This document shows positions 39,183-62,940 of a stretch of DNA of 64,000 nt, one piece after another. The DNA comes from a virus. The DNA is taken from positions 1-64,000 of the IMG/VR virus record IMGVR_UViG_3300032770_000012. One strand, 5' to 3'. Made by a program: the position numbers and the translations under genes. A model generated the notes under the pieces. It had not been told where the DNA came from and searched no databases. It saw nothing but the letters and a program-made list of their open reading frames with translations. Positions within the stretch are counted from its first letter, which is position 1. Each line of letters starts with the position of its first letter.

Positions 39183-40160
39183 ATGGCCAGCGAACCGAAA
39201 ACTCTCCAAGAAGCGCTGATCTACTTCGCCGACCCGAAGAACTGCCGTGAGTACCTTGTCGCGCGGCGCTGGCCGAATGGCGTCACCTGCCCGCGCTGTG
39301 GTAGCGACAAGGTTGCATTCCTTGAAAAGTACAATCGCTGGCAGTGCAGTGCGAAAACTCATAAGGATCGGCAGTTCACTTCCAAAACCGGAACGATCTT
39401 TGAAGACTCTCCGCTTGGCTTAGACAAATGGCTTGCAGCAATGTGGCTGCTGGTGAACTGCAAGAACGGCATCTCCAGTTACGAAGTGTCGCGCGATCTG
39501 AAAGTCTCGCAGAAATCCGCTTGGCACATGCTGCACAGAATCAGGCTCGCCACGCAGGATAAAGCGACTGGCGGGAAGCTGTCCGGGGAAGTCGAGATCG
39601 ATGAGACCTTCATTGGTGGCAAAGCACGGAACATGCATAAGGGGAAACGCGAAGAGAACATCACCGGCACGGGCGGCAAAGACAAGACCGCCGTCATGGG
39701 CATGGTGGAACGCGGCGGCAAGGTTCGTTTGCAGGTAGTGGACAACCGGCGCAAGAAGGAATTGCAGAAGCAAGTTCGCGAACACGTCGAAGCTGGCGCG
39801 GCGATCTTCACTGACGAACTGAAATCCTACGACGGTCTGGAATCCGATTATCAGCACGCCGTCATCAATCACGCCGTTGAATACGCGGACGGCAACGTCC
39901 ACACCAACACAATGGAGAACTTTTGGAGTCTCCTGAAGCGCGGATTGCACGGAACCTATATCAGCGTGGAACCGTTCCATCTTTTTCGTTACCTGGATGA
40001 GCAGGCATTCCGCTACAACAACCGCAAGGATAATGAGGGCGAAACGTTGACCGACAGTGACCGCTTTGATTTGGTCGTCCGACAGATCGTAGGAAAGCGC
40101 TTGACTTGGGCCGAAGTCACCGGCAAGGTGAAGGAAATTCCGCCGTCATCCGCTAACTAA
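39183..40160 (+). CDS. IS1595-family transposase
   Basis: 325 aa. N-terminal C4 zinc ribbon (CPRCGSDK about residue 38; WQCSAKTHKDRQF about 57), an HTH (SSYEVSRDLKVSQKSAWHML about 100-120), then the ISXO2-like DDE/N domain: GEVEIDETFIGG (D about 139), FTDELKSY (D about 200), and HTNTMENFWSLLKRGLHGTY (N/E about 240). Fits the usual family length. It lies inside a bounded element. The frame is intact, so recent mobility is possible. Confidence 0.9.
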   Translation: MASEPKTLQEALIYFADPKNCREYLVARRWPNGVTCPRCGSDKVAFLEKYNRWQCSAKTHKDRQFTSKTGTIFEDSPLGLDKWLAAMWLLVNCKNGISSYEVSRDLKVSQKSAWHMLHRIRLATQDKATGGKLSGEVEIDETFIGGKARNMHKGKREENITGTGGKDKTAVMGMVERGGKVRLQVVDNRRKKELQKQVREHVEAGAAIFTDELKSYDGLESDYQHAVINHAVEYADGNVHTNTMENFWSLLKRGLHGTYISVEPFHLFRYLDEQAFRYNNRKDNEGETLTDSDRFDLVVRQIVGKRLTWAEVTGKVKEIPPSSAN

Positions 40161-50021: not shown

Positions 50022-50231
50022 ATGCATAGAACGTTTTGCATTGAACGCATTCAAACCGGGGAGCGCGGTATTCAGTACTGGCTTTCCTACGATGACGAGA
50101 TTTACACGCTCGCCGAAGGCAATGAGCGTATGCGTTTTCTCATTCAGAATCAGCCGGATTGCGACTTTAGGCTGATTGAGATTTTGAGTCACAGCGTAGA
50201 CTTGCGGCAAGCGCACGGGGGTTCCCGATGA
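50022..50231 (+). CDS. small early protein, 69 aa
   Basis: MHRTFCIERIQTGERGIQYW, mixed. Preceded by AAGGAGACGACTT. Overlaps by four bases the ATPase gene, which suggests translational coupling to it. Function unknown. Confidence 0.6.
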   Translation: MHRTFCIERIQTGERGIQYWLSYDDEIYTLAEGNERMRFLIQNQPDCDFRLIEILSHSVDLRQAHGGSR

Positions 50232-51226
50232 CGCCAGCTTGCCCGGTTAAACCATCCGAACTCGTGCGCGCCTTAACGCTGCTCTATGAGGCCCGCCATC
50301 CGGCGCATGTCTGGGGAAGCCCAGGGACGGGGAAGTCCAGCGTTATGGCGCAAGTCGCTGACTCGCTTGGCATTCAGCTTATCGACGTGCGCGCCGTCCT
50401 GCTCGATCCGGTGGACTTGCGGGGACTGCCGCATATCAACGGCGGCGGGCGCTCGCATTGGGCCATCCCTGACTTTCTGCCGCGCGAGGGCGCTGGCATT
50501 CTGTTTTTCGATGAGGCCAACCGAAGCGCGCCATTGGTCCAGAACGGATTGCTTCAGATCACGCTCGACCGTCGCTTGGGCGAATACCGGCTACCTGACG
50601 GTTGGTGTTGCATGCTGGCCGGTAACCGCGAGTCGGACGGCGGCGGCGTCACAAAGCTCAATTCGGCGCTGTCTAGCAGGTTGACTCACCTAGACTTACA
50701 GGTCGATATGGACGATTGGTGCAAGTGGGCGCTGAGCGCCGATGTTGAGCCGCCCGTGGTAGCGTTCCTGCGATTCAGGCCGGAACTGCTGGACAAGTTC
50801 GACCGCACCGCTCGCGCCTATCCTAATCCGCGCTCCTGGAGCTTTGTTTCCCGGATCGTGGCGAGCCATCCGGACGCTACCGTCGAGCACGCGCTATTTG
50901 CGGGCACGGTCGGCGAAGGTGCTGCTACCGAGTTCTCAGCCTTCATGCGGCTTTATCGGACCTTGCCAGACATGGATGCCATCATCGCGAAACCGGACAA
51001 AGCGCCGGTACCGGATCGCCCGGAAACACTGTTTGCTGTAGCGTCCGCGCTGGCGCGCAAAGCTAACGTCCAAAACTGGGCGCGCATCCTGACCTATGCC
51101 GAACGACTGCCGGAGGAATTTTCCATCTACATGGTGAAAGATTCCGTCATGATCCACCGCGAATTGAACGAAACAAAGGAGTTGACTAAGTACCTGATCG
51201 CTCACAGCGACGTTGCCTTGGCGTGA
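50228..51226 (+). CDS. MoxR-type AAA+ ATPase
   Basis: 332 aa. Walker A WGSPGTGKSS (about residues 29-38), Walker B GILFFDEANR (about 90-99), and sensor-1-like CMLAGNRESDGG (about 135). MoxR ATPases remodel or chaperone partners together with VWA-domain proteins. The genes that follow are a DUF3150-like protein, a zinc-finger protein and a metallopeptidase-VWA protein, a set seen in some phages and plasmids. Its target is unknown. Confidence 0.8.
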   Translation: MTPACPVKPSELVRALTLLYEARHPAHVWGSPGTGKSSVMAQVADSLGIQLIDVRAVLLDPVDLRGLPHINGGGRSHWAIPDFLPREGAGILFFDEANRSAPLVQNGLLQITLDRRLGEYRLPDGWCCMLAGNRESDGGGVTKLNSALSSRLTHLDLQVDMDDWCKWALSADVEPPVVAFLRFRPELLDKFDRTARAYPNPRSWSFVSRIVASHPDATVEHALFAGTVGEGAATEFSAFMRLYRTLPDMDAIIAKPDKAPVPDRPETLFAVASALARKANVQNWARILTYAERLPEEFSIYMVKDSVMIHRELNETKELTKYLIAHSDVALA

Positions 51227-52142: not shown

Positions 52143-52396
52143 ACGAGGCTTTCACGCACGCTCGTAAGGGCGACAAATTCTTTAAGTTCGTCTGGCTTTC
52201 GAATCTTGGCACGGAATATTCCAGCGGTCGCGACGTGGCTGAGGCCTTCGGAAGCGCCGGTTACAGTGCTGGAGCGCTAGCGGCTTTGGATTATCACGCC
52301 GAAGTTTTCCCCTGTAAAGACTGCGATTTTATTGGGGATTCCAAGGCCGATCTGACAAAGCACAAGCGCTCTTGTGGAAAGAAGGTATCAGCATGA
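52139..52396 (+). CDS. zinc-finger small protein
   Basis: 85 aa. The C-terminus CKDCDFIGDSKADLTKHKRS followed by CGKK fits a C2HC-type zinc finger. Preceded by ATGA overlap with the gene before it and followed by an ATGA overlap with the metallopeptidase gene, so it belongs in the same translation chain. A DNA- or protein-binding partner; function unknown. Confidence 0.6.
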   Translation: MNEAFTHARKGDKFFKFVWLSNLGTEYSSGRDVAEAFGSAGYSAGALAALDYHAEVFPCKDCDFIGDSKADLTKHKRSCGKKVSA

Positions 52397-54372
52397 CCAA
52401 ATCACTCCCGATGGATGCTGCCAAGCTGATGAGCCGGGCGCGCACTAAGCTGATGCTCAACCATCCGTGGTTCGGTTCGCTCGCCATGCGCCTGAGAATG
52501 CAGGAGCGCTCCGACATCCCCACTATGGCGACCGACGGAACGTATCTGTTTTATAATCCTACGTTTACGGCGTCATTGAGTGAAGCGGAGCGCTTAGGCG
52601 TGGTTGCACATGAGGTAATGCACGCCTGTTTGGGTCATGTATTTCGTCGCCAAAACCGTGACCCGTATAGGTTTAACGTTTCCTGCGATCTGGCGATTAA
52701 CCCGATACTGATCGAGGCGGGCCTGACTTTGCCCAAGGGCGTGCTGATAGACGACAAGTTTAAAGGCATGTCTGCTGAGGCGATATACGCCCGCCTTCCT
52801 ATCAACCAGCAGGGGGGCGCTGGTAAGGGATCACCGCAATCCGGGGGCGCTCCTAGCGCCCCTAATGGCCGAAGATCGATGGGGAATTGTCCGACTGGCG
52901 AGTTTTGGGACTCACCTTCTATCGGATCTTGTCCAGATCCGGACGCCATGACGGAGCAAGACTGGCGCATTGCGGCTGAGCAGGCTTGCCAGATAGCCCG
53001 TAAAGCCGGTAAACTGCCAGCGAGTCTTGACAGGGCGGTCGAGCAGGGCCGAAAGAGTCGCACGGACTGGCGGGCGCTCTTGCGTGAGTTCATACAATCC
53101 ACCACGCCGAGCGATTATTGCGTCGGGCCGGAAACGATGGTCCTACGAGCAGATCTCACATGGGCACGCGCTGACGAGATCAAGATCGGCGATGAACTAA
53201 TCGGGGTCGATGAACACCCCGCTCGCTCCGTTGACACCAATGTGTATGGGCGGAGACGCGTCCGCGTTTCAGTGGTTGAGTCCGCCCATACCTTCAATTC
53301 CACTAGACTCGCGGTGACTACGGATCGGGGGACAACGATTGTCACCCCCGACCATCGCTTTCTCTGTTTCAAGTCTGGCGGCAAACTCCATTGGAAGTAC
53401 GCAAAGAATCTCCGCCAAAATGATCAAATCAAAATGCTTCTACAACCATGGACCGAGGATTTATCTGACTCATGGCTAGCCGGGATGCTTGATGGTGAAG
53501 GAACATTGACAGCCAATCCGGCGACATCGCCCCGTTCCGGCCTGAACCTCCGCATTAGCCAAGCAGAAGGCCCCGTGCTTGACCGCGCTGTCTCTGAGTT
53601 TGCTAACTTTTCATCAGTTGCGAAACGGATAAAGATATGCAAACCGCCTAGACATCTCGGCTCTCAAGTGATCGGAGAAGTGATAGTCTGTCGTGTGGCA
53701 GATGTTCTCCGTATTATCGGCCAGCACCGACCGACTCGATTGCTGCCAAAAATGCTCGATATGATACGGCGTGGTTATTTTTCTCTGCCTCGCTTGGACA
53801 GGGCCACTGTGCGTAGTGTCACTCTTTGTAAACCTGGATCAGTTGTTGCCATTCAGACCACTACACGCACGCTCATAACTGACGGCCTAATCAGCCACAA
53901 CTGTTGGTGCGCCCCCAGCAGGCGCTACATTTCGCAGGGTTTGTACCTTCCGGGGATCGTTAAGGAAGGCATGGGGCCTATTGTGGTGGCGATCGATACC
54001 AGCGGGTCAATCACGCGCCGGATGCTCAACGTGTTCGCCGCCGAGCTATCGGAGATCCTGACAGAGTGCCGCCCGGAATCGGTGGAGGTCATCTATTGCG
54101 ATGCGGCGGTCCAATCCACGGAGACATTCACGCCCGATGATGGCTTGGTAGAACTCAAGGCCAAGGGCGGCGGCGGCACGGCATTCCGGCCCGTTTTTGA
54201 ATGGGTTGCGGACCATAACTTAGAGCCCGTCGCGATGGTGTATGCTACGGACCTGGAGAGCTTTGACGCGCCCGACGATCCGGGAAGTTATCCGGTTCTG
54301 TGGCTGACGCCGGAGGACGTATCGCGGGGCGTCCCATTTGGCCGTCATGTGCCGGTGGACGTGGAGGATTGA
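52393..54372 (+). CDS. metallopeptidase-VWA protein with intein
   Basis: 659 aa from the ATG at 52393 (MTKSLPMDAAKLMSRARTKL); an ATG at 52372 lies in the preceding gene. HEVMHACLGH (about residues 73-82) is an HExxH-type zinc site; the MIDAS motif DTSGS (about 535-539) marks a VWA domain. These flank an intein of 261 residues (243-503), so the mature protein would have about 398 residues. The precursor belongs to the 'VWA-like, DUF2201 putative metallopeptidase' type paired with MoxR ATPases. Confidence 0.8.
   Translation: MTKSLPMDAAKLMSRARTKLMLNHPWFGSLAMRLRMQERSDIPTMATDGTYLFYNPTFTASLSEAERLGVVAHEVMHACLGHVFRRQNRDPYRFNVSCDLAINPILIEAGLTLPKGVLIDDKFKGMSAEAIYARLPINQQGGAGKGSPQSGGAPSAPNGRRSMGNCPTGEFWDSPSIGSCPDPDAMTEQDWRIAAEQACQIARKAGKLPASLDRAVEQGRKSRTDWRALLREFIQSTTPSDYCVGPETMVLRADLTWARADEIKIGDELIGVDEHPARSVDTNVYGRRRVRVSVVESAHTFNSTRLAVTTDRGTTIVTPDHRFLCFKSGGKLHWKYAKNLRQNDQIKMLLQPWTEDLSDSWLAGMLDGEGTLTANPATSPRSGLNLRISQAEGPVLDRAVSEFANFSSVAKRIKICKPPRHLGSQVIGEVIVCRVADVLRIIGQHRPTRLLPKMLDMIRRGYFSLPRLDRATVRSVTLCKPGSVVAIQTTTRTLITDGLISHNCWCAPSRRYISQGLYLPGIVKEGMGPIVVAIDTSGSITRRMLNVFAAELSEILTECRPESVEVIYCDAAVQSTETFTPDDGLVELKAKGGGGTAFRPVFEWVADHNLEPVAMVYATDLESFDAPDDPGSYPVLWLTPEDVSRGVPFGRHVPVDVED
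52931..52944. promoter_or_regulatory. dispersed palindrome, 13 of 14, within a gene
   Basis: GTCCAGATCCGGAC in the metallopeptidase gene, read C-P-D-P-D. One base away from the exact 14-base form. Confidence 0.5.
53119..53901 (+). other. intein with LAGLIDADG-type segment
   Basis: 261 residues from Cys (C1, CVGPETMVLRADLTW) to Asn (last four residues ISHN), followed by Cys +1. Block B has TPDHRFLC with its TxxH; block F has VVAIQTTTRTLITDGLISHN. WLAGMLDGEGTLTA (about residues 361-374 of the precursor) is a LAGLIDADG-like motif of a homing endonuclease. The splice would restore SDY followed by CWCAPSRRYISQG, a conserved part of this protein family. Confidence 0.85.
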
Positions 54373-54716
54373 TTGACGCGGTTCGTTGTGATCTCGGAAG
54401 GTGTTACGTTTCGCGTAGATCGTGTATGGACGCAGATTGGCGAGGTTTATATTTTGTCAAGCGCAAACTGGGGCGCGCCGAGCGGGAGGCGCTCCCGAAG
54501 GTCCGCAACATCTACGACGGCAAACAGGTAACGGTAGAGGACTTACGTGGAATCCCCGCCGATGACGCCAGGGAACTCGCTATGAGGATCATGGTGTTCG
54601 GAGCGGAGATCCATATCGGCATCGATCTCAGCGTCCTGAACAACTACACTCAGAGATACTCAAAGGCAATGGATACGATCTACAAGACCTCTCCGTTGTA
54701 CAAGCTGAAGTCATGA
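54373..54716 (+). CDS. small paralogue 1, possibly frameshifted
   Basis: The safest reading is ATG 54426 to 54716 (MDADWRGLYFVKRKLGRAER, about 96 aa) with the family motif QVTVEDLRGIPADDARELAM. A TTG at 54373, directly after the VWA stop and with GGAGG five bases before it, opens another frame (TRFVVISEGVTFRVDRVWTQ) that looks like the N-terminus of the family, so the gene may carry a -1 frameshift. The ATG at 54426 lacks a ribosome site. Confidence 0.55.
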
Positions 54717-55060
54717 TTATCGCGATGCAGAAGCGCGCCGGATTCGCTACCTACGGGGATAGCATTACAAACGCACTGTCCGATCAGACCTATACCGGCA
54801 GCAACTCTCGCGGGCCGTCCTGGGCGTACTTCGTTGTGACGGAGGAAAAGGACCCTGAGCGGATCTCGTGGCGCTGGCGCGCACATCAGCCGGAAGTTAT
54901 GGTTTTCGAGGGATTTATTCCGAAACTGGAGCAACTCTGGGACGGCAAGGCCGTTACCATCGAGGACTTGCGCGCCGTCGAGTCGGGAGACAAAGAGGCG
55001 GCGGCGTTGGCGCTCCGCATCATGCTGCTCGGAAACGGACGCGACTCGCCACCATTTTAA
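54713..55060 (+). CDS. small paralogue 2
   Basis: 115 aa, ATGA overlap with paralogue 1. The N-terminal half has AYFVVTEEKDPERISWRWRA and the C-terminal half has AVTIEDLRAVESGDKEAAAL then ALRIMLLG. Family members share E-[DHQ]-L and an AMRI-type end. Function unknown. Confidence 0.6.
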   Translation: MIIAMQKRAGFATYGDSITNALSDQTYTGSNSRGPSWAYFVVTEEKDPERISWRWRAHQPEVMVFEGFIPKLEQLWDGKAVTIEDLRAVESGDKEAAALALRIMLLGNGRDSPPF

Positions 55061-55096
55061 TCCGTTTTGACCTCCATTCTGATATACTGGTCGGAC

Positions 55097-55534
55097 ATGA
55101 AAATATGCTTTAAGTGTCATTCACTCAAACCTTTGGATGACTTCTATGAACATCCCAAGATGAAGGATGGTCATCTAGGAAAATGCAAGCAGTGCGCAAA
55201 GGATGATTCGAATGCAAGGCGCGCTGAAAAACTTGAATCTGTCAGAGCTTACGACAGAGAGCGCGCACAGAATCCTGCCAGAAAAGCGGCGGTACGTCGC
55301 TATGTGAGGGCGCGAAACTTGCGCTATCCGCAGAAACGAAAAGCTAGAATCGCTGTCGGCAACGCTATACGGGACGGATTATTGGTCAAGCTGCCATGCG
55401 TTCGGTGCGGCGACGAAAACGTGGAAGCCCATCACCATGATTACTCAAAGCCTCTGGAGGTGATTTGGCTGTGCTACCTACATCATAGAGAAATCCACGC
55501 AGAGATAAAACAACAGGCAATTTCAATGGTTTAG
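55097..55534 (+). CDS. HNH endonuclease, stand-alone
   Basis: 145 aa. Zinc-finger-like CFKCHSLKPLDDFYEHPKMK at the N-terminus; C-terminal CVRCGDENVEAHHHDYSKPL followed by WLCYLHHREIHAE makes an HNH with Cys pair and HH, HH dyads. It separates paralogues 2 and 3, which otherwise overlap, and is likely a homing endonuclease inserted into the array. Confidence 0.8.
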   Translation: MKICFKCHSLKPLDDFYEHPKMKDGHLGKCKQCAKDDSNARRAEKLESVRAYDRERAQNPARKAAVRRYVRARNLRYPQKRKARIAVGNAIRDGLLVKLPCVRCGDENVEAHHHDYSKPLEVIWLCYLHHREIHAEIKQQAISMV

Positions 55535-55537
55535 AGC

Positions 55538-55780
55538 ATGGGAATCTACGCAAAGAGCGGCAAGTACATGGATGTATATCGGGCTGAATTCTTCTCCGGT
55601 CACTGGCGCTGGCGCTGGCTGACAATCAGAAAACGCCAATCAACTTATTGCCTTAAAGCTAAAGTGGTTCATGGTGTCTATTCCGCCGCTTTTGTCACGG
55701 TCGAGCATCTCGCGCAATTCCCGCAAACTGATGAGGTTAAAGCGCTGTCCATGCGTATCCTGATGGGGATCGGACAATGA
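55538..55780 (+). CDS. small paralogue 3
   Basis: 80 aa, MGIYAKSGKYMDVYRAEFFS, then AFVTVEHLAQFPQTDEVKAL and SMRILMGIG. The shortest full copy, ATGA overlap with paralogue 4. N-terminal part aromatic and basic. Confidence 0.6.
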   Translation: MGIYAKSGKYMDVYRAEFFSGHWRWRWLTIRKRQSTYCLKAKVVHGVYSAAFVTVEHLAQFPQTDEVKALSMRILMGIGQ

Positions 55781-56175
55781 AACTGCCGAAATTATACTGC
55801 CGGTCCGATGCCGGTCGAGTCTTTATGCTGGATTTGCGATACACCTACAATTTACACATTGAGTGGCGGCGGCATGGGGGGATCTTATTCCAATCCGAGA
55901 GCCAACTACCATTTACTCCGGCTGCCGCCGTTTTAGTATGGTCTCCATTTTTGCTGCGCATTGAGGAAACCAAAACTATTGGAATCACACCGTTTATACG
56001 CATGCTTGAGGAAACCAAAACTATTGGAATCACACCGTTTATACGCATGCAAGACAGAGGAGAGCCGAATCCGGCAAATTCTGTTCTGTTCAGAATAGAG
56101 GACTTGAAGCACTTCCCGCAAACCGATGAACTGAAGGAATTTGCCATGCGGCTGACGTTGGGGTTGCCGGAATGA
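55777..56175 (+). CDS. small paralogue 4, with internal duplication
   Basis: 132 aa, MKLPKLYCRSDAGRVFMLDL, with ETKTIGITPFIRM occurring twice in tandem (45-base duplication) and LFRIEDLKHFPQTDELKEFA then MRLTLGL at its end. The duplication makes this copy longer than its neighbours; in-frame, so it is probably expressed. Confidence 0.65.
   Translation: MKLPKLYCRSDAGRVFMLDLRYTYNLHIEWRRHGGILFQSESQLPFTPAAAVLVWSPFLLRIEETKTIGITPFIRMLEETKTIGITPFIRMQDRGEPNPANSVLFRIEDLKHFPQTDELKEFAMRLTLGLPE
55961..56050. repeat. perfect 45-bp tandem duplication
   Basis: Units 55961-56005 and 56006-56050 are identical. Each encodes a 15-residue segment, E-E-T-K-T-I-G-I-T-P-F-I-R-M. No third copy. Confidence 0.85.
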
Positions 56176-56438
56176 TATTGTGCCGGGACGCAAGCGGGGT
56201 AATTGTGCGCTTGTTTTCGGAGGAGGGGTTCTATTGGTGGGAGGCAGCATGGCTGGCGGCGGTCTGGTGTTCTCCGGAGGAAGCAATCCCTATGGTAGAA
56301 CAGATCTCTGTTCCGGACGATTGGCGTGGTCTTATGCGGTTTCCTGTCAAACTAGAACACTTAGAAACTTTAGAGCAGACCGACGAACTCAGGGAGGTCG
56401 CCATGCGGATCATGCTCGGGATCGGAGCGCCGGAATGA
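56172..56438 (+). CDS. small paralogue 5
   Basis: 88 aa, MILCRDASGVIVRLFSEEGF, then PVKLEHLETLEQTDELREVA and MRIMLGIGAPE. ATGA overlaps on both sides. Function unknown. Confidence 0.6.
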   Translation: MILCRDASGVIVRLFSEEGFYWWEAAWLAAVWCSPEEAIPMVEQISVPDDWRGLMRFPVKLEHLETLEQTDELREVAMRIMLGIGAPE

Positions 56439-56734
56439 TGGATCTGCCGAAGTTATTCACGCGGGGCGGGGCGAACGGACCGTATTGGCAGCTTCAACGA
56501 CTGGTACTGGATGCTCCAGACCGGCCCGTCCGCTTCGTCTTTCAATGGGCCAATGTGCAGCACGAATACTTCCGAACTGAAATTCTCAAGGGGGCCGCTG
56601 TTTCCCAAATGCTGATGCAGCGGTTGCCCAATAGGATTCACAACCCGTTCCGGCTGGAAGATCTGAAGGGCTTCCCTCAGACCAACGAAATTCGGGAATT
56701 CGCCATGCGAATTGCGCTCGGTTTGGAACCGTAG
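56435..56734 (+). CDS. small paralogue 6
   Basis: 99 aa, MMDLPKLFTRGGANGPYWQL, then PFRLEDLKGFPQTNEIREFA and MRIALGLEP. The start at 56435 overlaps the previous stop; a longer frame upstream is not needed. MKLPKLY and MMDLPKLF starts are shared with paralogue 4. Confidence 0.6.
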   Translation: MMDLPKLFTRGGANGPYWQLQRLVLDAPDRPVRFVFQWANVQHEYFRTEILKGAAVSQMLMQRLPNRIHNPFRLEDLKGFPQTNEIREFAMRIALGLEP

Positions 56735-57900: not shown

Positions 57901-57933
57901 TTGTTGACAACAATTACAGGATGCAAGTAAAAT
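57901..57933. promoter_or_regulatory. divergent operator and promoter
   Basis: TTGTTGACAACAA (57901-57913) is a perfect 13-base palindrome covering TTGACA (57904-57909) of a plus promoter with TAAAAT (57928-57933) 18 bases later, and TTGTCA on the minus strand facing the HTH gene. GGATGCAAG lies at 57919-57927. A protein bound here could repress both directions. Confidence 0.55.
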
Positions 57934-58298: not shown

Positions 58299-58474
58299 GC
58301 TTGGGCGATAAGATTGTCGATCATCCGAGTTTCGGAATGGTTGGAGCGAGTCATGTTAGCTCTACCGGCACAAAGGCCGAACAGGTCAAGACGATTTTCG
58401 TAGAGCCTTACATTGCGCATACACGCGCCCTGAAACTAATCGAAAACAAGGAAGCAAAGACATGCCAGATATAA
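58295..58474 (+). CDS. small early protein, 59 aa
   Basis: MSLGDKIVDHPSFGMVGASH, mixed, overlapping the RecT-like gene by 13 bases. Function unknown. Confidence 0.5.
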   Translation: MSLGDKIVDHPSFGMVGASHVSSTGTKAEQVKTIFVEPYIAHTRALKLIENKEAKTCQI

Positions 58475-60060
58475 CGGTGCGGCAACCGCAGCAACAGATT
58501 ACCGTGGAGCGGGGAAAAGATATGTTTCCCGACGACGCCGAGCTTTCCAAGATGTGGGACATGGCGCGCGCCTTTTCAACCACGAATCTTGTGAGGCGGC
58601 ATCTTCAGAACAATGCGCCTGCGATCTTTTACAGCCTGAACATCGGGAAAGAACTCGGTATCCACTGGAGCCATAGCCTGCGCAGTCTGTACATTACAGA
58701 CAAGGGTGAGGTCGGCGTAGAAGGTAACATCATCGGATCTTTGCTTTGGTCCAAAGGATTCAAGATCACAATCAACGAATCCACCGATAAGCGCGCCGAA
58801 GTAACGATCACGCGGCCCAATGACGGTGGCTCCCATACCGATTCATTCACCATCGAGGAAGCGGCCAAAGCTGGTCTTACACGCCGCTGGAACCGGGATA
58901 AGCAGGAATACGTTGACGACTTCTCTTGGAAAGCGTACCCCAAGGACAAGCTCTATTGGCGCGCCCTGATGCGAACCGCCCGGCGTGTCGCCGTCGATGT
59001 GATGTACGGACTTTATCTTGACGATGAACTTCGCGAGTCCGAGCGCGCCGAACGTGATGCGGCGCTAGCGTCTGGAAACGGAATGCCGTCCGATTCGCAG
59101 TCGGAACAACTCGAAGCAGCCAACCAGTATTACGTCGGGAAGAAACAGCCATCCGTGGAAGCCGAAGCCGAGGCCCATATTGTTTCAGCCGAGCCCGCGC
59201 CGCCCGCTGGTTCCAATGCCGAATTTTCGCAAGCCGCCAAGGAACGTGCGGCTGCTAACAAGAAACCGGAAGCGCCTGCTACAACTGCGTCGTCTCCTGA
59301 TAGTGGTTCGCAGGCCGCTCCGGTCGATCCGGGGAAGGGTCCTGGCGGGCTAACCGGGACGCAGTCACCTTCCCCGGAATCAGAACCTTCTAAGCCCGCC
59401 GCCGATCAGGGCATGGCTGCGGCTGTGAAGGCCAAGATTTTGGAGTTGACCGACAAATGGCCCACGCTATCGCCCGAAGTCGCTAAGCAGAAACTTCAGC
59501 AGGCCGTGAAGGGATGGCACGGAGTCAACCGGCTTCCTACCGACCCCAAGGCGTATCTGTCTCCGCTTGCCGCCATTGAGTGCGCCATGAAGTTCGAAGG
59601 CGGCGTGATCGATCAACTACTGAAGCGGGAACCTGCGCAGTTTGGCAAAGCAGCCAAGACCGCTTTCGATCAGGTCAATGCGAAGATGGCCGACTGGAAA
59701 TGGCCGGGTCCGGTGCGGGCGCTGGCACTGGAGGTTTGGTACCTCCGCATGAGCCCGCTGGAGAGCGATGAGTTTATTGATTGGATTCAGAATACCCTTG
59801 AGATCTCCGGTCTGCCCGAGAAGGATTTGGCACCGTTCTTTGAGTGCGCCCTGATTTCCCGCCAATGTTTCCGGCTGGTGTTGCTATCGCGCAAGCTGAA
59901 TCTGCCCGTCTCGGAGTTAGCAGGATCTTTCTTGCGGGATCAGCCGCATGAGGAGCGCGCTCTTACCAACTGGCTGGACGGTCTGGAAAAGCAGGACACC
60001 ATCAAGACCGAGGATGACGCTCCTACCGATTCCCCGCAAGAAGCGCTGCCCTGGGAGTGA
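58462..60060 (+). CDS. RecT-like ssDNA annealing protein
   Basis: 532 aa. Residues about 10-215 resemble RecT/Bet-type annealing proteins: LGIHWSHSLRSLYITDKGEV, then FTIEEAAKAGL, and KAYPKDKLYWRALMRTARRV followed by DVMYGLYLDDEL, close to the 'YWRALxRGARRLFPDVxxGLYTPEEL' block. A Pro/Ala/Ser-rich linker (about 245-335) leads to a helical C-terminal domain (about 335-532) not found in plain RecT. A PD-(D/E)XK nuclease follows downstream, a natural partner in phage recombination. Confidence 0.7.
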   Translation: MPDITVRQPQQQITVERGKDMFPDDAELSKMWDMARAFSTTNLVRRHLQNNAPAIFYSLNIGKELGIHWSHSLRSLYITDKGEVGVEGNIIGSLLWSKGFKITINESTDKRAEVTITRPNDGGSHTDSFTIEEAAKAGLTRRWNRDKQEYVDDFSWKAYPKDKLYWRALMRTARRVAVDVMYGLYLDDELRESERAERDAALASGNGMPSDSQSEQLEAANQYYVGKKQPSVEAEAEAHIVSAEPAPPAGSNAEFSQAAKERAAANKKPEAPATTASSPDSGSQAAPVDPGKGPGGLTGTQSPSPESEPSKPAADQGMAAAVKAKILELTDKWPTLSPEVAKQKLQQAVKGWHGVNRLPTDPKAYLSPLAAIECAMKFEGGVIDQLLKREPAQFGKAAKTAFDQVNAKMADWKWPGPVRALALEVWYLRMSPLESDEFIDWIQNTLEISGLPEKDLAPFFECALISRQCFRLVLLSRKLNLPVSELAGSFLRDQPHEERALTNWLDGLEKQDTIKTEDDAPTDSPQEALPWE

Positions 60061-60063
60061 TCG

Positions 60064-60474
60064 GTGCCAATCCTTTGCTCGTCCTTCATCAAGTACGCAT
60101 GGGACTCTCGCCCTGGGTCAGGTCATTATACTGCGTTCCAGCTTGAGGCCGTATTCGATCCCAAACGGAGCGTCTGGTTGTGGCAAGAGGTCCGGGAGCA
60201 CACACAGACTCAGATCAAAGACCCGGATAAGCTTTCTGCTGTCTGTTCGAGTTTGGGTCCGCTGATCTTGGATGTTCATCCCTTACAGCCGGTGAAACCC
60301 GAGCAGTTAGAGTTTCTTGGCAGCGATGAGGCCCGAGAACTCGCCATGCGTATCCTGATGGGGATCGGACCTAAAACCGAACCGGAGAAAGATTGGTGGG
60401 ATCGTCCAGATCTGGACAGCCGCACGCAGCGGCTGAAGCTGGCGAATCATCCTCGATTCAAGGTGAACGCATGA
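60064..60474 (+). CDS. small paralogue 7, distant copy
   Basis: 136 aa, GTG start at 60064. FQLEAVFDPKRSVWLWQEVR near residue 22 matches the aromatic N-terminus of the other copies, and PVKPEQLEFLGSDEARELAM then RILMGIGPKTE is the family end. A C-terminal extension contains the palindrome (60404-60417), read R-P-D-L-D. It lies 3.3 kb from the array, after the RecT-like gene. Confidence 0.6.
   Translation: MPILCSSFIKYAWDSRPGSGHYTAFQLEAVFDPKRSVWLWQEVREHTQTQIKDPDKLSAVCSSLGPLILDVHPLQPVKPEQLEFLGSDEARELAMRILMGIGPKTEPEKDWWDRPDLDSRTQRLKLANHPRFKVNA
60404..60417. promoter_or_regulatory. dispersed palindrome, 14-bp exact, within a gene
   Basis: GTCCAGATCTGGAC in the C-terminal part of paralogue 7. Confidence 0.7.
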
Positions 60475-60647
60475 AACCGCTGGTCCTTTTGGCGCTCCTT
60501 GCTTTCTCCGCCTGTCCCGGTTCGGTGCCATGTCCGATTGACGGCCTGAGTTCTACCTGGACCGGCAGGAGTCATTACGTCGATGGCGTCATGATCGGCG
60601 CTTACCGCTGCCCGCGAGGGCACACGTTTGAGGTTGCATGCCCGTGA
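60471..60647 (+). CDS. small lipoprotein
   Basis: 58 aa, MKPLVLLALLAFSACPGSVP. The lipobox-like LAFSAC gives a lipid-modified Cys at about residue 15; three further Cys are in the mature part (PCPIDG, YRCPRG, EVACP). ATGA overlap. Could act as outer-leaflet anchor or superinfection-exclusion protein; no evidence beyond the lipobox. Confidence 0.55.
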   Translation: MKPLVLLALLAFSACPGSVPCPIDGLSSTWTGRSHYVDGVMIGAYRCPRGHTFEVACP

Positions 60648-60811
60648 AGAGGATCATTCGGGACATAGCGCTCGTTATCGCTTCAGTAGAGATTTTGGTT
60701 TTGGTGTGCTTCAGCATCTTCCCGTCTCCTCTACCGGAATACGCAGTTTTGTCGGTTGGGTTTATCGGCGTGATAGCGGCTATTTTGGCTGGTAGCGGGA
60801 GGCACGAATGA
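60638..60811 (+). CDS. small two-span membrane protein
   Basis: 57 aa with basic start MPVKRIIRDI then two hydrophobic stretches (about 9-28 and 36-51: ALVIASVEILVLVCFSIF; AVLSVGFIGVIAAILAG). Overlaps the lipoprotein gene by ten bases. A membrane pair with it is possible. Confidence 0.5.
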   Translation: MPVKRIIRDIALVIASVEILVLVCFSIFPSPLPEYAVLSVGFIGVIAAILAGSGRHE

Positions 60812-60835
60812 CTTTTGAGCAGCGCAGGGGAGACA

Positions 60836-61075
60836 ATGGCTGACACTTTCCCGATGGTCAATGTGTCATCGAGCAACATCCAGGCGGTCGGCTGGCAGGC
60901 CGAACGCGAGGGCGATGATGTCGGCACTCTGCGAGTAGCCTTTCGCAATGGCGCGGTGTTCGATTACTCGGATGTGCCGGGCGTGATTTACCAACAACTG
61001 CTGGAATCCCCGAGCGTTGGCAGCTACTTTCACGGCAATATCAAATCGCATTACAACAGCACCAAGGTATCCTGA
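60836..61075 (+). CDS. KTSC-domain protein
   Basis: 79 aa; VSSSNIQAVGWQAEREGDDV, then FRNGAVFDYSDVPGVIYQQL and SVGSYFHGNIKSHY match the KTSC domain, named for its occurrence at the C-terminus of some lysyl-tRNA synthetases and common in phages and plasmids. GGGGAGACA precedes the ATG at 60836. A very short frame, MTFEQRRGDNG, lies in the leader. Molecular function unknown. Confidence 0.7.
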   Translation: MADTFPMVNVSSSNIQAVGWQAEREGDDVGTLRVAFRNGAVFDYSDVPGVIYQQLLESPSVGSYFHGNIKSHYNSTKVS

Positions 61076-61443
61076 TGGCCCGCGATCTACTGTGCCAGAA
61101 ATGCGCTCCGTTGGCTATCGAGAGGCGTTCGAAGATCCGCTTTCCGCTAGAAATGCGGTTGTCCTATAGCGCTATCCGAAGACATTCTGGATTCGGGAAA
61201 ACAGTTGACGTGTCCAGTGCTGGAATGCTCCTCGAACTGGATGGCTTTGTTCCTGCCGGTACGAAGTTGCACCTCCTGCTAGAATGGCCCTGCCTGTTGG
61301 ATTGGAGCGTCCCCATGAGCATGACGGTTGAGACGAGGGTCGTCCGCTGTATCGGGAACCGTGCGGCAGTACGGCTGCTTTCTTATGAGTTCAAGACTCG
61401 CAGGGGCCCGCTCCTCGCGCGAGAGAGAGCGATAGCCTCATGA
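61075..61443 (+). CDS. PilZ-domain protein
   Basis: 122 aa. ERRSKIRFPLEMRLSYSAIR gives the RxxxR of PilZ, and TVDVSSAGMLLELD the (D/N)xSxxG; both are needed to bind cyclic di-GMP. The N-terminus has CQKCAPLAIER, perhaps a zinc site. Shares its A with the previous TGA (TGATG). A phage-encoded c-di-GMP receptor could sense or divert host signalling linked to motility, biofilm or exopolysaccharide. Predicted from the two motifs. Confidence 0.65.
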   Translation: MARDLLCQKCAPLAIERRSKIRFPLEMRLSYSAIRRHSGFGKTVDVSSAGMLLELDGFVPAGTKLHLLLEWPCLLDWSVPMSMTVETRVVRCIGNRAAVRLLSYEFKTRRGPLLARERAIAS

Positions 61444-62060
61444 TCGAATTCGACCCGGTTCGTCACGAGTACTTCTTGGATGACCGCCAGCTTTCCTCAT
61501 TAAGCGAAGTGCGCCGGGCGGCTGGACTGGATGAATTCTTCAATATCGACCAGCAGTATCGGGATCGCGGCAATGCGGTTCACTACGCGACAACTCTAAT
61601 CGATCAGGGCGAGTATGATCCCGATACGACGCATCCCGAGGTCCATCGGTTTGCTTCCGGTTATCTGGCGTTCAAGCGCGAGCACCGGTTTGAGATTGAG
61701 GGTTCCGAGGAGATAGTGTGGTGCCCCTCCATGGGGGTTGCCGGGCGGTTGGACCGGCGCATCGTCATGACAGGGGAGCGGATCATCCTGGATTTCAAAA
61801 GCGGTTCTCTACCGGCGCTGGTCGGCATCCAACTTAACGGCTACAAGTACTTGCTGGCATCCTCGCATTCGATCAAGGCCGATAAAGTGCGCTGCCTGTT
61901 GCTGCCGGGGGATGGCTCTTACCGGCTCGTGAGCCATGTCACGCTGGGAGGAAAGTCCGTCTCGCTCGATGACCCAATGTGGCTCCAGGCTTTTTTTGCG
62001 GCAACCAAATTGTACGGCCTTCGTAAGCAGGCCGGTCTGATCGGGAACGGAGCGCGATGA
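61440..62060 (+). CDS. PD-(D/E)XK nuclease, RecB/Cas4-like
   Basis: 206 aa. AGRLDRR (D about residue 101), ILDFKSG (about 117-123) and QLNGYKYLL (about 131-139) are the classical order of PD-(D/E)XK exonucleases, with HYATTLIDQGEYD near residue 44 as a first helix. No Cys cluster as in Cas4. It follows a RecT-like gene, so resection of dsDNA ends followed by annealing is the likely job. ATGA overlap. Confidence 0.8.
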   Translation: MIEFDPVRHEYFLDDRQLSSLSEVRRAAGLDEFFNIDQQYRDRGNAVHYATTLIDQGEYDPDTTHPEVHRFASGYLAFKREHRFEIEGSEEIVWCPSMGVAGRLDRRIVMTGERIILDFKSGSLPALVGIQLNGYKYLLASSHSIKADKVRCLLLPGDGSYRLVSHVTLGGKSVSLDDPMWLQAFFAATKLYGLRKQAGLIGNGAR

Positions 62061-62233
62061 CCTGCCAGCGCTGTGGCTCGACCCGCGTATTGAACGTGAG
62101 GTTTGAGCATCGGATCGCAGGTAGCTCTCTTGCGCAGCATTGTCTTGACTGCGATACGGTTTACAACGAACGCACCTGGAAGGAAGGAAATCAGTGGCAT
62201 CCAGTAAAGAACTCATTGGAACTTTCACCATAG
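62057..62233 (+). CDS. small zinc-ribbon protein
   Basis: 58 aa, MTCQRCGSTRVLNVRFEHRI with CxxC, and HCLDCDTVYNERTW with another CxxC about 25 residues later: a C4 zinc ribbon. Overlaps the nuclease stop by ATGA and the next gene by about 40 bases. Role unknown. Confidence 0.6.
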   Translation: MTCQRCGSTRVLNVRFEHRIAGSSLAQHCLDCDTVYNERTWKEGNQWHPVKNSLELSP

Positions 62234-62940
62234 ACCTGACCAAATCCTCATCGTCCATTACGGTGGACTTGGCGAGCACAGAACTGGCTAGCCGGGAACT
62301 TCAGGTCAATAGCGAGCAGGCGTTTGAAAATGCGGCGGCGCTGGTCGCCGTCTGCGCGAAGCGGGCCGAACAGGTCGCATCATTCTGGGAACACGACAGA
62401 GATTTGGCGCACCAACTGCACCGCAGCATCACCGGAAAGATCTCCGCCCTACAGGCTCCTTGGATCAAGATTCGGGCCAGCCTTGAGGCCAAGATGAAGG
62501 CGTGGCGTACCGCCCAGGAGCGCGAGCGCCAGAAGCGCGAGCAGGAGGAGCGCCAGCGTGCCGACGAGGAGCGCCGCAAGGTCGAGGAGCAAGCCCGAGC
62601 GCTCAAGATGGCCGGTGAGTACGGATTGGCTAAACAGGTCGTCCAGGAGGCCGAGACCGCCATTGCGCCGAGTTCGGTCCAGCCGTTTGCGCCCAAGTCT
62701 GAATCGGTCACCGAAAAGTGGCCCTGGATCGGCGAAGTCAACGATCTCATGGCGCTCATCAAGGCGATTGCCGAGGGCACGGTTCCGTTAGAATATGAAA
62801 TCAAGGGCGAGATGCGACCCCTGCTCAACGTCGATCAGAATGTGTTGAACCATCTGGCGCGGACCAGACAGGGCGATTTCTCTATCCCTGGATGCAGCGC
62901 CAAGCAGGATCTTAGATTCTCCCGAAAGGCCGGAGTATGA
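62194..62940 (+). CDS. phage coiled-coil protein
   Basis: 248 aa, GTG start at 62194 with GGAAGGAAA upstream. A central charged coiled coil (about residues 105-145, KREQEERQRADEERRKVEEQ) links an N-terminal domain to a C-terminal PWIGEVNDLMALIKAIAEGT part. Found in recombination blocks of many phages and sometimes annotated only as hypothetical. Probably a partner of the recombination genes. Confidence 0.6.
   Translation: MASSKELIGTFTIDLTKSSSSITVDLASTELASRELQVNSEQAFENAAALVAVCAKRAEQVASFWEHDRDLAHQLHRSITGKISALQAPWIKIRASLEAKMKAWRTAQERERQKREQEERQRADEERRKVEEQARALKMAGEYGLAKQVVQEAETAIAPSSVQPFAPKSESVTEKWPWIGEVNDLMALIKAIAEGTVPLEYEIKGEMRPLLNVDQNVLNHLARTRQGDFSIPGCSAKQDLRFSRKAGV

Follow-up and report, generated by a model that had tools for sequence, protein, structure and literature searches.

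The virus record studied here encoded a 122-residue protein that was almost certainly a member of the PilZ family, and its closest ties were to a chromosomal, multi-copy family of single-domain PilZ proteins in the Bryobacterales. The novelty lay in finding a known domain family on a phage: the protein was ordinary for its family and unusual in its location; the annotation was well supported and the role was putative. The window (the whole stretch of 64,000 nucleotides that was analysed) was part of a 101,193-base virus record. The sequence-only reading had pointed to the open reading frame and to both of its putative c-di-GMP contact motifs, and all of these were present as it had described. 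The gene and its surroundings were organised in the window as follows.

57904..57933, plus strand: promoter-like TTGACA-18-TAAAAT upstream of the operon, 11/12 matches
58462..60060, plus strand: RecT-like ssDNA annealing protein, encoded by the operon's first gene (phrog_4171, E 5e-19)
60064..60474, plus strand: ORF of 136 aa with a repeated AMRI-LG C-terminal motif, no Pfam or PHROG match
60638..60811, plus strand: possible small hydrophobic ORF of 57 aa, a mechanical ORF call only
60815..61075, plus strand: KTSC-domain protein of 86 aa (PF13619, E 1.6e-17)
61073..61077, plus strand: TGATG, KTSC stop and PilZ start, 1-nt overlap
61075..61443, plus strand: pilZ-like gene, ATG start, 122 aa, single-domain PilZ protein
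61126..61140, plus strand: RxxxR motif, codons R18-R22 (R18-S-K-I-R22)
61207..61224, plus strand: (D/N)xSxxG motif, codons D45-G50 (D45-V-S-S-A-G50)
61440..61443, plus strand: ATGA, PilZ stop and exonuclease start, 4-nt overlap
61440..62060, plus strand: PD-(D/E)XK exonuclease of 206 aa (phrog_298, E 5.5e-18; PF12705, E 8.3e-4, below the cut-off)
62194..62940, plus strand: 248-aa phrog_10477 protein, labelled exonuclease (E 6.8e-8)

One report describes RxxxR and (D/N)xSxxG as the regions through which PilZ proteins contact c-di-GMP (PMC3131395). By itself, this motif pair was at chance level and gave no proof of PilZ identity: with an allowed spacing of 15-35 residues, it was found in 3 of the 536 window frames (stop to stop, at least 60 aa), compared with a mean of 3.2 (range 0-8) over 50 rounds of frame shuffling, and shuffling of the phage PilZ protein itself produced the pair in 97 of 20,000 shuffles. 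A chance frame with accidental motifs would agree with these counts, but it was refuted by homology (profile E 4e-28, tblastn E down to 1.9e-20 per genome) and kept practically no probability. Thus, it was the homology and not the motif pair that identified the ORF at 61075-61443 as a real PilZ protein.

The Pfam profile PF07238 matched residues 16-103 of the phage protein (profile positions 1-87 of 102) with E 1.6e-4 and a score of 22.4 bits, which was 0.1 bit below the curated cut-off of 22.5; host relatives passed this cut-off clearly, for example with 33.6 bits. A profile built from 45 acidobacterial host relatives, with the phage protein excluded, scored it at 100 bits (E 4e-28, search space fixed at 100,000), and the phage PilZ protein was the sole match with E <= 10 among 5,505 frames from the window and the related phage stretches. 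In alignment A1, which consisted of 22 host sequences and the phage protein, a PilZ match with E <= 0.01 was obtained for 22 of the 23 members. The PilZ identity proposed earlier was borne out by both profiles.

The earlier reading had also required the contact residues to be placed as in PilZ folds, and at the level of sequence their register was the same as in the Pfam domain and in E. coli YcgR. Fragments starting at the D of the second motif entered the profile at position 29, whether taken from the phage protein (D45), the host locus L070 or YcgR (D145), and position 1 corresponded to E16 of the whole phage protein and to Q112 of YcgR. R18 and R22 then fell on positions 3 and 7, as did R114 and R118 of YcgR, which presumes a gap-free alignment of profile positions 1-7. 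Under this assumption, R18, R22 and D45 were equivalent to R114, R118 and D145 of YcgR, since they occupied the same Pfam positions. Apart from sharing the domain and the contact positions, YcgR differed in having a PilZN domain in front of its C-terminal PilZ domain and, according to its annotation, in acting on flagella, whereas the phage protein was one domain. No pairwise similarity between the phage protein and YcgR was detectable, and hhalign of A1 against the lone YcgR sequence gave nothing. A sequence search of the PDB returned no match at E <= 10, and the sole match of the A1 profile there, an aldolase with E 0.092, was taken as chance. The single-sequence AlphaFold2 model of the phage protein had a mean pLDDT of 45.7, too low for the model to be compared with the six-stranded beta-barrel of PilZ domains.

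In Acidobacteriota genomes, tblastn found relatives that were 35-42% identical to the phage protein, and over all alignments the top identity to any host relative was about 43%. We searched the order of the Solibacteraceae bacterium SbA4 genome (G003, which carries locus L015; Solibacteraceae belong to Bryobacterales) and found a relative with E <= 0.001 in 125 of 150 genomes, one of which had 15 matches. A phylum-wide draw gave a relative in 15 of 396 genomes; three of these (G003, G193, G295) recurred in the order search, and the others had E values of 1.2e-6 or worse. The single-domain PilZ family was an expanded feature, largely of one order, the Bryobacterales.

Chromosomal members of this family (e.g., L067, L068, L070, L096, L098 and L099) could be aligned with the phage protein over the whole domain at 35-43% identity, and they had RRxxxR, (D/N)xSSxG, WPxxL, VVR and (E/Q)FRT in common with it. 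We took host rows from 60 loci (L035-L094; tblastn E <= 0.01 on local re-search), and removal of duplicates and of the divergent L045, L050, L058, L059, L060, L061 and L063 left 45. Among these rows R18 was conserved in 45, R22 in 43, D/N45 in 40, S47 in 41 and G50 in 40, counts that were biased high because the divergent rows had been dropped beforehand. Within the 45 rows, G50 was lost in the L047, L048 and L042 types, and D/N45 was also lost in some. W71-P72 was found in 45 of 45 host rows and the C-terminal EFRT in nearly all; the phage copy had both W71-P72 and E105-F106-x-T108. It retained 17 of the 19 positions that were at least 90% invariant in the host family, the two altered ones being L83 (to M) and G87 (to T). 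The phage copy further differed from close host relatives by a gap of about 3 residues before the DxSxxG motif and from the family as a whole by its location in a recT-exonuclease operon. Bryobacterales versions sometimes followed a receiver-like domain (L080, L084, L088; receiver recognised by eye). Ten neighbourhoods of close host copies, with genes called by codon score and read by eye, looked chromosomal and had no shared operon, except for a peptidase pair adjoining two of the copies. We found no function for this host family in the literature.

The phage origin of the gene, as proposed earlier, was confirmed by terminase, portal and major head protein genes identified in the virus record with PHROGs; Pfam assigned the portal to the P22 type. 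Its only relatives in 50,697 phage records were the portals of two phages of Tunturiibacter, a genus of Acidobacteriota (25.6% identity over 37%). Additionally, an IS1595-type transposase at window positions 39183-40160 was 53-69% identical to copies found mostly in Acidobacteriota records (31 loci compared, a few of them from other phyla). The portal relatives and the transposase copies suggested that the host was very probably an acidobacterium, and perhaps one within the Bryobacterales.

The major head protein found six viral contigs at 56-59% identity. These also shared the portal and the terminase at 45-47%, although the 8-kb piece L117 gave no terminase match. The exonuclease, ATPase, terminase and RecT proteins, used as queries for related phages, found none. 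None of the six related records matched the phage PilZ protein at E <= 1, three of them being short fragments, and the host PilZ profile had no match in stretches covering the three longest (G654, G655 and G656). In G655, two small ORFs separated an ORF matching the RecT C-terminus (L127 12089-13498) from the exonuclease gene downstream. In G654, a RecT-like ORF (L121 11129-12616) abutted the exonuclease gene; this ORF was called from its position and by reading, and it had no tblastn match to the RecT of the window. G656 gave no match to RecT or to the exonuclease. Since the layouts of G654 and G655 differed, the interval between recT and the exonuclease gene appeared to hold different cargo in each phage, PilZ being one load. 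G655 and G656 scored equally and possibly represent one phage, which leaves about two independent comparisons.

Several other features of these genomes were recorded. In G655 (L127:10980-11666), a repeated N-terminal part of RecT ran, as judged by eye, into a KTSC-like tail, so that KTSC and RecT were associated in two phages. A C-terminus of the type L-x-x-FPQTDELRE-x-AMRI-x-LG was common to the window ORFs at 55538-55780, 55777-56175 and 56172-56438, to one ending at 56734 and to the ORF at 60064-60474; the AMRI-LG ORFs (54713-56734 and 60064-60474, by eye) formed an unnamed phage paralogue family with one member in the PilZ operon. The ORF at 55777-56175 contained a perfect 45-base tandem duplication (55961-56050). 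At window positions 52372-54372, a DUF2201 metallopeptidase/VWA protein was interrupted by an insert that looked intein-like and HNH-like, and it was adjoined by an AAA ATPase (50228-51226). The helicase at record positions 63172-66015 (L002:673-3516) had an insert of about 350 residues that was absent from its L121 relative (tblastn 5-341, 690-914) and was probably a second intein. Finally, a glycosyltransferase-like part was fused to a sulfotransferase domain at record positions 72781-74178 (L002:10282-11679).

The earlier view that PilZ genes are rare in phages fitted our searches. The phage PilZ protein had no PHROG family; among the 50,697 phage records there was no match with E <= 1 to it or to one host relative, and plasmid records likewise gave no match to it at E <= 1. 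These results are to be read with the weakness of single-sequence and short-pattern searches for a fast-evolving PilZ domain in mind. Scanning viral contigs with the phage protein, the host alignment and a close alignment revealed no PilZ relatives, a weak negative because the host-alignment search patterns would miss the phage protein itself. Within the phage's own record we found no GGDEF protein or tyrosine integrase, and the same search also missed PilZ there, which makes this result weak as well. An unannotated 2,308-base "Salmonella phage" record contained a YcgR match, which we took as likely host DNA. No phage-encoded PilZ protein was found in the titles and abstract openings of the open-licence papers listed for PilZ in phages.

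Our favoured explanation is that the gene encodes a PilZ-domain adaptor of the multi-copy chromosomal Bryobacterales family, that gene transfer brought it into a phage infecting these bacteria, and that it occupies the variable recT-exonuclease slot as accessory cargo. The observations behind this part are the homology, the motif residues, the operon overlap and the absence from the related viral records. The gene was set among RecT, exonuclease and helicase genes, a content that fits the "early block" to which it had been assigned, and from this position we would expect it to be read together with the recombination genes soon after infection. Because it overlapped both neighbours, it was not a contig-end assembly artefact and was likely co-translated with them. 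The conservation of R18, R22 and D45-G50 makes it likely that the protein binds c-di-GMP. As a lone domain with the WPxxL and (E/Q)FRT features, it may dock on a partner of the kind that the host copies use and, by mimicking or competing with a host PilZ adaptor, shift a c-di-GMP-governed output during infection. Surface structures, matrix and motility would be candidate outputs, a guess, as we found no known function for the host family.

The step to a mimic or competitor was tentative, with a probability a little short of even. We preferred it because residues of the host family outside the ligand site were kept, and because PilZ proteins that stand alone are known to respond to c-di-GMP by acting on a partner. 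For instance, MotL of Shewanella putrefaciens is reported to be a stand-alone PilZ protein that binds c-di-GMP and slows lateral flagella (PMC8203827); it resembles the phage protein in its single domain, a likeness by description and not by sequence, and differs in being chromosomal. The PilZ/c-di-GMP pathway is also a known phage target, since Zip of Pseudomonas phage JBD26 is reported to bind a host PilZ protein and limit pili (PMC11656802). Both would be cases of phage interference with a PilZ-dependent surface function, with the difference that Zip targets PilZ, whereas the window protein is PilZ.

The alternative that survived best, although unlikely, was that the gene is a passenger, a caught host gene that is no longer useful. 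With a codon table trained on the long ORFs of the phage, it scored -0.033 per codon, while recT and the KTSC, exonuclease and phrog_10477 genes scored 0.096 to 0.173 and the ORF at 60064-60474 scored 0.037. This poor fit to phage codon usage would suit a passenger; it is consistent with gain from a host and also with a small gene of odd composition. The two changed invariant positions, the lack of a copy in related viruses and a long tree branch agree with a passenger as well. In the tree, whose 59 rows (with L045, L050, L058, L059, L060 and L063 restored) and 102 columns were too few to resolve more, the phage row was weakly nested among host rows near L073, L099, L067 and L096-L098 (SH-aLRT 82, fork drawn open), its end branch was 1.69 and no starred set contained it. 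Identity stopped near 43%, so none of the genomes searched was a recent source of the gene. On the other hand, with identity to every host relative found at about 40%, an open frame and 17 of 19 kept invariant positions would need selection, and the tight overlap with both neighbouring genes also argues against a passenger.

Two further alternatives were judged improbable and about equally so. An abundant phage PilZ protein could act as a sponge that soaks up c-di-GMP and lowers its free pool, which would suit a single domain with intact motif residues and has parallels in the phage sponges reported for other cyclic nucleotides, namely Acb2, Tad1 and Tad2 (PMC12657218). However, a mere sink would need no WPxxL and EFKT surface features outside the ligand site, and these were kept; host genomes already had many PilZ copies; and the sole expression cue examined was the promoter-like match upstream of the operon, which came from a scan giving 4 sites against 2.6 expected and so was no evidence of function. 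The sequence-only reading had suggested that the protein may sense host lifestyle or sequester the messenger; its close link with a single host PilZ family speaks more for imitation of a host effector than for a pure sink. Alternatively, PilZ could tune the RecT/exonuclease recombination or replication genes of the phage by c-di-GMP, as its place inside the recT-exonuclease set and the coupled translation suggested by the overlaps on both sides might imply. Against such a regulator, related phages had recT-like and exonuclease genes without PilZ, the two abutting in G654, and the host copies checked had no recombination genes visible nearby (by eye).

A more specific proposal, counter-signalling, seemed to us a long shot: the early-made PilZ would titrate c-di-GMP or a host PilZ partner and block a c-di-GMP-dependent response to infection. 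That response could be a defence signalled by nucleotides or a change of the cell surface that excludes the phage. If counter-signalling were true, a PilZ protein would for the first time be shown to work for a phage in such a way.

The tie to a host family and the slot in the operon went beyond what had been recognised in the sequence-only reading. Surface structures that serve phages as receptors are under c-di-GMP control. Most of the reported phage interference with c-di-GMP/PilZ wiring that we encountered acts on host proteins, as is described for Zip (PMC11656802). A host c-di-GMP receptor carried by the phage itself would give it direct entry into the pathway, and would also offer a genetic handle on the expanded PilZ family of soil Acidobacteria. 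Judging from the sequence, the phage may tap into or interfere with the c-di-GMP signalling of its host.
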